Of a DNA stretch of 32,415 nt, positions 218-10,283 are shown piece after piece; positions within the stretch are counted from its first letter, which is position 1, and the number at the start of each line of letters is the position of its first letter. Origin of the DNA: Desulfosporosinus sp. Its GTDB lineage: Bacteria > Campylobacterota > Campylobacteria > Campylobacterales > Arcobacteraceae. The notes below the pieces were generated by a model, which saw nothing but the letters and a program-made list of their open reading frames with translations, searched no databases and was not told where the DNA came from. The DNA is taken from contig DYPS01000025.1 of assembly GCA_020719775.1 (NCBI GenBank), positions 1 through 32,415 on the forward strand, in the 5' to 3' direction. The translations under genes and the position numbers were made by a program.

Positions 218-1176
218 ATGAGTCAAATTGATAAGCAAATTGAACAGCTACGAAAAGGATAAATAATCAGCTAACAAGAAGTTAAATATCTATGCTCTAA
301 GGCCCGTTAAATTCTAGTAGAAGAGGGTAACGTACAGAGAGTTGATTCACCTGTCACAATTTGCGGAGATATTCATGGACAATTTTATGATCTTTTAGAG
401 TTATTCAAAAATGGAGGAGATATCCCAGGAGTTTGCTATCTTTTCCTCGGAGATTTCGTAGATAGAGGTTTCAATAGTGTTTAAACCTTTTTGCTACTTT
501 TGGCCTATAAAGTGCGCTATCCCGACTTGGTAACTCTAATCAGAGGCAACCACGAATGTCGTCAAATTACACAGGTTTATGGTTTTTACGATTAATGTTT
601 GCGTAAGTATGGTTCTCTAAATGTTTGGCGTTACTGTACTGATGTATTCGACTATCTATCATTGGCTGCGATAGTGGACGATAGTATTTTTTGTGTTCAT
701 GGTGGTTTGAGTCCAAGTATAAACGATTCAATTGATGAGGTAATTTTAATCTTAATTTAGATTCGTTCAATTGACAGAAAGCAATAAATTCCTCATGATG
801 GTTCTATGTGTGATTTAATGTGGTCTGATCCTGATGGTAGTTTACTTGTTATTTAGATATTTCAGGATGGGTCTTAAGTCCTAGAGGAGCTGGCTATCTG
901 TTTGGAGGAAATGTGGTTGAGTCTTTTAACCATTTGAACAATATTACTGAAATAGTGAGAGCTCATCAGTTAATTATGGAGGGGTATAAATAAATGTTTA
1001 ATAAGCAATTGGTGACTGTTTGGTCTGCACCTAATTATTGTTATCGTTGTAACAATATTGCATCTATTCTCGTGCTGGATGATAAGTTGAATCAAAAGTT
1101 TATTAAATTCGAGGCAGCTACTCATTAAAGTAGAGTTATTCCCGCTAAAAAAGCAATACCTGAGTATTTTTTATGA
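218..1176 (+). CDS. PPP4C: Protein phosphatase 4 catalytic subunit (PPX/PP4c)
   Basis: Ser/Thr phosphatase of the PPP family, which removes phosphate from proteins using two metal ions and works with regulatory subunits in nucleus and cytoplasm. Seen: 305 residues after removing introns at 740-760 (21 nt) and 837-856 (20 nt). The PPP motifs are in order: GDIHGQ at about residue 50, GDFVDRG at 78, RGNHE at 109, then HGGLSP and SAPNYCYRC. The N-terminus (DRQIEQLR-like, [10 protein letters not shown]), the RGAGYLFGG stretch, VMEGYK-like IMEGYK and the EYFL tail match PP4 better than PP2A or PP6. The C-terminal leucine, methylated in PP2A/PP4, is kept. RGNHEC replaces the usual RGNHES. Many glutamines are TAA/TAG. 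The ATG at 218 gives the family N-terminus directly. The spacer to the next gene is 263 nt. Confidence 0.93.
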
Positions 1177-1439: not shown

Positions 1440-1981
1440 ATGTCCTACTACTACCCTTACTATTCCAGGTACAAACTATATTATTCAGCTATGCAGCCAC
1501 CATTGCTGCTGAAAGCGCATTGCGTAGATCAAGAGTAGAAGCAGAAATTGCTGCTTCAAGAGTTGCCACTGATGCTGCACTTAGAAGATCAAGAATTTAA
1601 GCTGAAATTGTCACTGAGTCAGCTCTTAGAAGATCCAGAATTTAGGCTGAAGTTGCTGTTGAGAGAGTAGCCACTGAGACTGCTTTAAGAAGATCTAGAC
1701 TTGCTGCTGAATTAGCTGCATCAAGACTTGAAACTGAAGCTGCTCTTAGAAGATCTAGAGTTGCAGTTGAAATCGAAGCAGATAGAATTTACACTGAAAG
1801 TGCTTTAAGACGATCAAGAGTCTAGGCTTAAATTGCTGCTTAGAGGTTTGCCGCTGTTGATGCAGTGAGACGTTCTCGAGTTGAGGCTGAAGTGATTACA
1901 GAGGCTGCTTTGAGAAGATCAAGAGTTGAGGCTGAAATTGAAGCATCAAGAATTCGTAGATACTATTATCCTTACATCTGA
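1440..1981 (+). CDS. ALRRSR-repeat protein with YYYPY ends
   Basis: Not recognised as a named family. One 20-nt intron (1469-1488) right after the ninth codon is needed to join the start to the repeat; the result is 173 residues. The protein opens with MSYYYPYYSS and ends RRYYYPYI. Between these lie eight degenerate repeats with core ALRRSR, followed by (V/I/L)xAE(I/V/L), spaced alternately about 20 and 15 residues. Arg, Ala and Glu dominate and no hydrophobic segment or signal peptide is seen, so a charged helical or coiled structural protein is likely. Three internal TAG/TAA glutamines (QAE, QAQ) fall inside repeats, confirming the code. The start is chosen because the ATG immediately precedes the YYYPY motif. 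A role in cortex, cytoskeleton or filament assembly is inference only. Confidence 0.82.
1497..1959 (+). repeat. Eight ALRRSR coding repeats
   Basis: Imperfect tandem repeat inside the preceding gene. Each unit encodes ALRRSR plus a short Ala/Glu-rich helix; units alternate between roughly 60 and 45 nt. DNA copies (for example cttagaagatcaaga) vary mostly at third codon positions while the protein stays constant, as expected for selection on the protein rather than a recent expansion. Confidence 0.8.
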
Positions 1982-4042: not shown

Positions 4043-5537
4043 ATGCCACGATCAGAACACTCCCAAAGCTTTTCAGTCAACTCTACAGGAACCCGTCTCA
4101 GTCAAACTGAAAAAATGCAAAGAGAAGCCGATCATTACACTAAAAAGTATTAGTGGGAGAGAAGAAATTTGTTGACTCTTCAGGGAGTTTAAAGCAAACT
4201 TCAAGGAGATATATAAAATTTGAAAAAGAATGTGGCCCAACTGAAAAAGGAAAGTGAGGAGGGGGAGGTAAAGGTTATGTTTACCAAAATGAGAAATCTA
4301 CAAAAACAAATCGACATCGTAAAATTGTTTTTATGCAGAATGATAAAAGATACAATGAAACAATGGGAGAAATAGCTAGATTGAAAAAGGCAATTGATTT
4401 GCTTAGACAGGAAAAGACTATGTATCAAAATAATCTGAAAAGTTTGGAAGGAGATATCTAAAAGGCCGACGGAGAGATCAACAGTTTGATGCAAAACATT
4501 TAATCCAGCCAAAACACCAGTAAAATGAGTCAAAATTTAATGCTAGGCTTGAAGATGAAGAATGAAGAGGACAAAACTAATTATTATCGCAGACTGACTT
4601 AGCTTAATAAGGAACTTAAAGACCCCAAACTTAACAGAGGCAGTCGCATTAAAACTGGAGAGATTAATGCAATTCAAAATGACACAGCTGCAGTATTGAA
4701 ACATCGATTGACGAAGTTGATAGTAAACAATAAATAGAAAGTGAAACTAATCGACAACTACCAGAGAAATATGAAGGTGATTGATGAGGCTTTCACAACA
4801 ATAAAGGAAGCAACTGGACTAACTGACATTTTATAAATTCAGAATACTTTCATAAAGGGAGAGGAGCAAAACTACAATTTGTTGACTTATGTCGATGTTT
4901 TAAATCAATAGATTGATAACTTAGTTGATGTCAATCAAAATTTGAGAGCCAAAAACGAACAGCTTAAAAAGGATAATCAATAGAAGCAAAGAATTTTGAA
5001 TTAAACTCCTGAGGATTAAAAGAGAAGAATTAAAATTCAGTAGTATATTGACAAAAAGAAAAAGGATGTTGATTAATTCCAGCACATGCTTGATTAAATA
5101 TCTCCACTTGTCAAGTAAGTGTTGATCAAAATGGCTGGATCCAAATTTAACAGATCGAATCCTCATCGAGTCCAGGAGTATATCAATTCTGGAGTTAATC
5201 TCAATGACTCCAATTTGGCTGAGTATTTGTCTGAACTTGAAGAGTATACCAACAGCATTCTCATCTATAAGGGCAAAGCTAGCAAACAAACTAACTCTTA
5301 AATTTATGCTAAAACTCTCCTTTTGGATGAATTAGCCCCCAAATAATTCAAAAAAAGAACTTATGTATTTTTTCAATAATTTAGGATAATACGGTGTTAA
5401 ATAACGTGTTGTAAGATGTGAAAGACAAAACCAAAGGTATTTAAAAACTACTTGATCGCGAACAGCTTTAAGATCTTGCCAAGAAGGATATCGATGTTAA
5501 AAAGCAAACTGAGGCTGCTAAAACAAAAAAGAAATGA
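4043..5537 (+). CDS. Outer dynein arm docking complex coiled-coil protein (ODA1/CCDC63/CCDC114-like)
   Basis: 484 residues after introns at 4319-4338 and 5365-5384 (20 nt each). Almost entirely coiled coil, rich in K, E, Q, N. Near residue 268 is EEQNYNLLTYVDVLNQQID, which resembles the most conserved motif of the ODA1/DC2 family (F/Y-S/N-L-F/L-N/T-Y-V-N/D-E/V-x-N-x-x-I). Known members form the docking complex that fixes outer dynein arms to axonemal doublet microtubules. The lysine-rich C-terminus ends AKTKKK. Both introns are required to keep frame. The start ATG lies just after an AT-rich leader and gives a short Ser/Arg-rich head before the first coil. Family assignment rests on this motif and the overall architecture; paralogues ODAD1 and CCDC63 cannot be separated by eye. 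Confidence 0.75.
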
Positions 5538-8795: not shown

Positions 8796-9110
8796 GTTCC
8801 CAGTTAATAATTGGAAGAATAATAATTCTATGATATCTGCTTTTATTTAACAAACAAATCAAATCCACTTTTTATAGTTTATGTTTGAAAAATAAAATGT
8901 TAAGGAAATATCGGTTTGTTCAAGGCCGTCAGTTTATTAAAATCATCTTTGCTTAATTCATTAAATGATGAATGTTAAAAATGAATGTGCGATGGAAGAA
9001 TATATTTTAAAATAAGTGTTTCTGTTATTTGCAATTGACAATACCTTATTAAAAATTATAAAAAAGACTATAAATAGTGAATCATTTTAGCAAGAAGATA
9101 TAAACTTCAA
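8796..9110. other. Divergent intergenic region
   Basis: Spacer between two divergently transcribed genes (minus gene starting at 8795, plus gene starting at 9111). AT-rich, with no credible coding frame. It must hold both promoters; no specific element could be recognised. Confidence 0.55.
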
Positions 9111-10283
9111 ATGAACAAAATTATTATTCTCTGTCTGGTGACACTCATCATAGGATCCCAAGCAGGCATTATTATTACTCCTATTGGATGGACTGACCCT
9201 ACTACAACTACCACCAACACCACATCCACCAACACAACATCCACTCCAACCAACACCACAACCACCAACACCACAACCACCCCAACTAACACAACAACAA
9301 GCAACACAACAACAAGCAACACCAACGCCACTTCCACCCCAACTAACACCCCAACCACCAACACTACAACCACCCCAACTAACACCACTACAACCTCAAC
9401 AAACACTACTACTAATACAACTCCCAACACTACAACCACCACCACCACACCCACTTCGACAACCCCTGCAAACACTTCTACATCTAACACTTCAAATACA
9501 ACCAATTCAAGTAATACAGTCCCAACTCTTACTCCAGTTCCTTCCAATTCGACAACACCTGCAAATACAACTACTTCTCATGTGATATCAACTATTTAAA
9601 ATTCAGGTCCAACTACAGTTACTATTTCGATAGTAATCAGTAATGGTTCGGCAACTCCAATTATTCTTTCCAGTTAATTGCCGAAACCTGTTTTGAGTAG
9701 TTAAAAGCATGATTCTTCTCGATAAAAAGAAGATGAAAAGAAATATAACAAAGATAGCAAAACATTGCCAACTATCACCACAAACTTAGTTGTAAATGGA
9801 GATTTTTAAGCAGCCAAATTATCAAATAATCTACAAGTATCTTCCATAAATCCATCAATTGGATGGACGCTAAATCGAGCCTATCCGATTGACGGCAGTA
9901 AGGTTGCTCCAAATTGGAAATCACAATTAGTTATTGGAAATTTGCAATGTAGTTCTTCACAAGGAAATCTTGCTCCAAATACCCTTATTTATCAGAATAT
10001 TAAAATTCTGAAAGCAGGATAGGTCAAATTAACCTTTAATTACGGATTGGTAAGCCTTGGAAATAAATCGCCAGTACCTCAAAACGGATAACAAATTTTG
10101 TTTTTAAACTTCAACGGCCGATCTTTCCCCCTTATTGCTAGTGATAAGCCCCAAACATATGAAAAAGTGTTTAAAGTGTTGCCAGGTAATGCTGAGCTAT
10201 TCTTTTCTCCAGTTGAAGATAGTACTCGTTGTGATCCTCAACTCTTCATGGCTTTGGACAACATTTCCTTATTCTATACGTGA
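9111..10283 (+). CDS. Secreted Thr-rich (mucin-like) protein with NGDF-type C-terminal domain
   Basis: 390 residues, no intron. Signal peptide MNKIIILCLVTLIIGSQAG, then about 120 residues almost wholly Thr/Asn/Pro/Ser with many N-x-T/S sequons (NTT), a set-up for dense O- and N-glycosylation. A short charged linker (about residues 195-220) follows. The C-terminal domain starts LVVNGDFQ, contains SIGWTLNRAYPID and ends ALDNISLFYT. The NGDF...GW...DN(I/V)SL frame is that of galactose-binding-like jelly-roll domains (CBM4/9, DUF642 type). So this is probably a cell-surface or released glycoprotein that may bind sugar or wall material; that role is inference. Glutamines are TAA/TAG after residue 163. 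The neighbour downstream is a kinase 513 nt away, with no visible link. Confidence 0.8.
9196..9470 (+). repeat. ACC/ACA-rich Thr/Asn tract
   Basis: Low-complexity coding tract of ACA, ACC, ACT and AAC codons giving runs of TTTTNTTT and TPTNTTT. Its base composition (C-rich on the plus strand, almost no G) differs sharply from the rest of the window. The minus strand gives a valine-rich frame that is only a shadow. Confidence 0.85.

Follow-up and report, generated by a model that had tools for sequence, protein, structure and literature searches.

What kind of protein is built from serial copies of an ALRRSR motif between tyrosine- and proline-rich ends, and to what organism does its gene belong? 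The window, by which we mean the whole stretch of 32,415 nucleotides that was analysed, is contig C85 of a prokaryote-filed assembly, which totals 2.85 Mb and is divided into 228 contigs. An eight-copy A[L/V]RRSR repeat with YYYPY at both ends had been reported at positions 1440-1981 by the initial annotation, and the sequence bears it out (Table 1).

Table 1. Features of the repeat gene and of the neighbouring phosphatase gene in the window
Feature	Positions	Strand	Remarks
Exon 1	1440..1468	+	MSYYYPYYS plus the first two bases of the codon that the intron splits; Tyr/Pro cap at the N-terminus; cap and splice point shared with the paralogue
Intron, 20 nt, GTACAAACTATATTATTCAG	1469..1488	+	GT-AG; its removal brings the repeats into frame
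Exon 2	1489..1981	+	eight A[L/V]RRSR units, C-terminal IRRYYYPYI cap, TGA stop
Single helix predicted by AlphaFold	1493..1966	+	residues 2-159 of the exon 2 protein, which starts at base 1490
PP2A/PP4-type phosphatase gene	218..1176	+	context; served to fix the genetic code

The recognised genes on the window are eukaryotic and encode PPP-type phosphatases, protein kinases, an adaptor-complex medium subunit, an SNF2 helicase, a pepsin-like protease and an ODAD1-like ciliary protein. Judged by this gene content, the window is not prokaryotic DNA, despite its place in a bacterial assembly. No telomere was found on the window itself; GGGGTT telomere repeats occur on other contigs of the assembly, in several of them at both ends, and contig C203 is a complete chromosome of 13,551 bases with telomeres at both ends. 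The bacterial assembly thus contains ciliate macronuclear chromosomes. Minichromosomes of ~7-40 kb with GGGGTT at both ends include C6, C8, C29, C31, C48, C49, C59, C76 and C203. The assembly carries a completeness value of 100 and a contamination value of 0.32, the latter giving no sign of the ciliate minichromosomes. A chlamydial bacterium was considered as a member of the assembly: Chlam_OMP was not detected, and the control searches were silent as well.

The genetic code can be read from the gene adjoining the repeat. The initial annotation had taken TAA and TAG to mean Gln, which proves to be wrong: the phosphatase gene holds eight in-frame TAA codons, and in an alignment to PP2A structures those at residues 19, 31, 89, 126 and 183 fall on conserved columns where the best match has Glu. 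Translation by table 30 instead of table 6 raises the Pfam score of the kinase from 186.1 to 192.6 bits and that of SNF2 from 286.1 to 290.6, and slightly lowers that of ODAD1 (81.2 to 80.0). In the repeat gene, too, the TAA and TAG positions are mostly Glu in the other repeats and in a paralogue described below. Since TAA stands on conserved Glu columns of the phosphatase, the code is the peritrich-type table 30 with TAA and TAG read as Glu. UAR codons are known to specify Glu in the peritrichs Campanella and Carchesium (PMC10553269), and on account of this shared code the window most likely comes from a peritrich ciliate. Searching with a pattern for the conserved 3' end of 18S turned up no eukaryotic rRNA. 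The four introns inferred here are very short: two in the phosphatase gene (740-760, 21 nt, and 837-865, 29 nt) and one each in the repeat gene and its paralogue, at 20 and 21 nt. Two further loci of the window may be recorded here: an ODAD1/CCDC114-like coiled-coil protein of outer dynein arm docking at 4258-5421 (PF21773, ~80 bits), and tandem-repeat DNA at 9210-9454 with ACCACCAACACC-like units of periods 15-57, within an ORF at 9081-10283 that has no Pfam match.

Read by table 30, the ALRRSR protein has 173 residues, a mass of 19.7 kDa and a pI of ~9.6. Its eight units, seven ALRRSR and one AVRRSR, span residues 20-155 between an N-terminal MSYYYPYY and a C-terminal RRYYYPYI, and follow the consensus ALRRSR[VIL][EA]AE[IVL] with a short or long spacer after it, the resulting 15-residue unit being the 20-residue unit minus a five-residue block. 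The two kinds of unit had been thought to alternate; they do not, for the spacing runs 20,15,20,20,20,20,15 and is likewise irregular in the paralogue. Tandem Repeats Finder reports periods of 45 and 60 nt at 1563-1821. Five Glu residues of the protein are encoded by TAA or TAG, so that a wrong stop-codon code on such contigs blurs the repeat: what appears as RIQAEI under the Gln reading is RIEAEI under table 30, and the protein is left without any Gln. In both paralogues Pro is confined to the caps, Tyr nearly so, and the repeats lack Pro and Gly. Together the two proteins contain no lysine in 360 residues, against ~10% in neighbouring proteins (K/(K+R) 0.66), and by this measure of composition arginine is specifically kept over lysine in both. 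Inspection of the sequence only gave no signal-peptide-like start.

The paralogue lies on the 13.6-kb telomere-capped chromosome C203 of the same assembly and encodes 187 residues (21.3 kDa) in nine units spaced 20,15,15,20,22,15,20,15, with MSYYYPYY at its start and RRMYYPYI at its end. The two proteins are 69% identical. The similarity is confined to the coding parts, the flanks matching at chance level, and no shared gene order was seen between the paralogue locus and the window; a WD40-repeat-like gene adjoins the paralogue (bases 3-1315 of that locus). The intron that had been proposed in the window gene gains support from the paralogue, whose own intron of 21 nt agrees with it in position and phase.

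A repeat array alone can hold a reading frame open, and the locus might on that ground be a chance open frame or a decaying array that yields no protein. This is scarcely credible given a paralogue that sits on a separate chromosome and shares both caps and intron place, flanks that are unrelated, and a dN/dS of ~0.2 (dN 0.25, dS 1.28). Within the window gene the repeat cores differ by a mean pS of 0.58 against a pN of 0.15, and over the repeat cores generally pS is 0.48-0.58 and pN 0.14-0.15. With silent sites near saturation and protein changes few, the ALRRSR genes are, by their substitution patterns, an old two-copy family under purifying selection; the earlier claim that the DNA copies differ at silent sites and that the repeat is old and kept by selection therefore stands.

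Is the protein known elsewhere? No named family was recognised at the outset, and this holds across the collections searched (Pfam, PDB, PHROGs, phage, viral and prokaryote). Pfam gave no family match, and no membrane-skeleton family was among the matches up to E 10. Searches of PDB sequences with the single protein, a profile and a repeat profile returned only a chance match (E 0.25), and a Foldseek search of the PDB came back empty, which is what a solitary helix would lead one to expect. There was no homologue in PHROGs and phage records or, by protein, in viral contigs, where a DNA pattern picked out 59 stretches, none related by profile. GTDB genome contigs, as well as sets of 60 and 104 related prokaryote genomes, contained nothing beyond the two copies of the assembly itself. 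The strings ALRRSR, YYYPYY, LRRSRVEAE and LRRSRIEAE were not found in the collection of papers searched. Of the homologues that the initial annotation had asked for, the paralogue in the same assembly is the only one to have come to light. The sequence collections cover solved structures together with prokaryote, viral and phage entries rather than ciliate proteomes, so that they do not establish a new family.

Structure prediction of the monomer, a step suggested by the initial annotation, yields a single helix with pLDDT ~95. AlphaFold models exon 2 of the window gene as one continuous helix (residues 2-159, mean pLDDT 94.9, ~23.7 nm) and exon 2 of the paralogue likewise (residues 2-171, mean pLDDT 94.8, ~25.5 nm), from alignments of two sequences only, with pTM of 0.41-0.42 and a method prone to helix for Ala/Arg/Glu-rich sequence. 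Pairs of Arg and Glu at i to i+4 are frequent in the repeat protein. Each protein is thus well predicted to be a single unbroken alpha-helix. A beta-solenoid, suggested by a 5.0-residue hydrophobic period, was dropped in view of the confident helix, and also because a 2.2-residue peak is the second harmonic of a helix.

Along this helix, neither protein has hydrophobic power at periods of 3.4 to 3.8 residues, so a hydrophobic period near 3.5-3.7 is absent, and the power of a one-sided stripe at 94-106 degrees per residue is 0.3 and 0.6 in the two paralogues. Because there is no stripe of period 3.5-3.67, with power at most 0.6, the sequences exclude a coiled coil built on regular heptads or hendecads. 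SF-assemblin, tektin and intermediate filaments are heptad coiled-coil fibre proteins and long helical structural rods; the ALRRSR rods differ from them in having no power at 3.5 residues. Two-sided, second-harmonic power reaches 16.8 and 19.2 against shuffle 99th percentiles of 6.4 and 6.1, much of which follows from periodicity, as a 20-residue repeat is about half a helix turn out of step. When this built-in periodicity is allowed for by permuting the columns of the repeat, the power is 15.6 and 14.3 against an expected 5.0 and 5.1 (p = 0.031 and 0.042, the paralogues not being independent). In 30-residue windows the two-faced phase holds steady as long as 20-residue units follow one another, and crossing the first 15-residue unit moves it by ~90 degrees, which corresponds to 45 degrees around the helix axis. 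These values weakly suggest that nonpolar residues lie on two opposite faces of the modelled helix.

What could such a helix do in the cell? We consider it a fair prospect, a little short of even, that the protein is a cytosolic structural rod of a peritrich-type ciliate whose helices pack side by side. Two opposing nonpolar faces would let each helix pack sideways on both, giving a sheet, bundle or filament, and the charged residues between the faces would be R3, R6 and E10 on one side and E8, R15 and E19 on the other. Each 15-residue unit would turn the faces by ~45 degrees, and the Tyr/Pro caps may terminate the helix and mediate contacts, either end-to-end or with a partner. As to the structure served, we can only guess at the cortex, the contractile fibre of the stalk or basal-body fibres. 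Of the earlier proposal of a two-layer helical filament or binding rod, the helical rod with its Tyr/Pro ends is upheld, two-layer packing finds at most slight encouragement in the two opposite faces of the predicted helix, and the alternating spacing on which it was founded falls away.

Epiplastins, the alveolate membrane-skeleton proteins comprising articulins, epiplasmins and alveolins, have middle domains rich in V, E, I, K, Q and P with many acid-base dyads, predicted as beta or coil without helices (PMC6212826). The ALRRSR proteins resemble them in a low-complexity, repeat-like, V/I/E-rich middle between distinct ends, but their repeats lack K, Q and P, hold three dyads per protein and are predicted all helix at pLDDT ~95. 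In designed cross-alpha nanotubes (Form I peptides) helices stack by two nonpolar faces, and Arg is special over Lys (PMC7814010). The two tentatively assigned nonpolar faces and the presence of Arg without Lys recall these nanotubes, which are, however, designed and heptad-based and have an RxxxR clasp, whereas no heptad stripe occurs here. An arginine clasp was considered for the ALRRSR proteins and ruled out, as RxxxR is absent from both; RxxR occurs in every unit. It is unlikely, in our estimate, that the ALRRSR proteins are a natural family whose helices bear nonpolar residues on two opposite faces and assemble, free of coiled-coil stripes, into a sheet- or tube-like filament serving a structure peculiar to peritrichs, for instance the cortex or contractile stalk.

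Another possibility is suggested by the serial arrangement of the basic motifs, eight to nine of them evenly repeated along a long predicted helix: a scaffold binding copies of a partner along its length, as Sfi1 binds centrin, with spasmin as a possible partner in a stalked peritrich. Sfi1, PtCenBP1 and spaconnectin share the long helix and serial repeats, and spaconnectin is itself a peritrich protein, an alpha-helical connector of 50 kDa proposed to join spasmins in Vorticella (PMC6189993). The ALRRSR proteins have neither Trp nor an IQ motif, and neither of them fits the Trp-containing repeat pattern of Sfi1; their repeat is shorter, with a spacing of 15-20 residues, and at 19.7 and 21.3 kDa (20-21 kDa overall) they fall well below spaconnectin. 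We regard such a scaffold as rather unlikely.

The length of the rod raises the question of a microtubule- or axoneme-bound element running along the lattice. The predicted 158 residues at 0.15 nm each give 23.7 nm, and 24 nm corresponds to three tubulin dimers; ciliates, moreover, have many lineage-specific axonemal proteins. This length is not kept by the paralogue (~25.5 nm), and rods of ~24 and ~26 nm argue against a strict ruler. With no match in the PDB either, where ciliate axoneme chains are many, this role appears distinctly unlikely.

The Ala/Arg/Glu-rich, low-complexity composition would also suit an LEA/CAHS-like protein serving in stress or encystment, disordered in solution and helical on drying or crowding, and peritrichs form cysts. 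We find this quite improbable in the face of the confident AlphaFold helix, the lack of a Pfam match, and a sequence with bulky hydrophobics in fixed places, no Lys and almost no Gly; LEA proteins are unlike the rod protein in just these respects, their Lys and Gly content and the fixed-place bulky hydrophobics.

The significance of the ALRRSR proteins depends on whether the structural rods assemble side by side. If they do not, the locus would add one more lineage-specific low-complexity rod protein. If the proposed assembly is true, they would represent a helical filament protein specific to its lineage, whose repeat differs from heptads and hendecads alike, and would be a candidate for poorly known structural parts of peritrichs such as the cortex and the contractile stalk.
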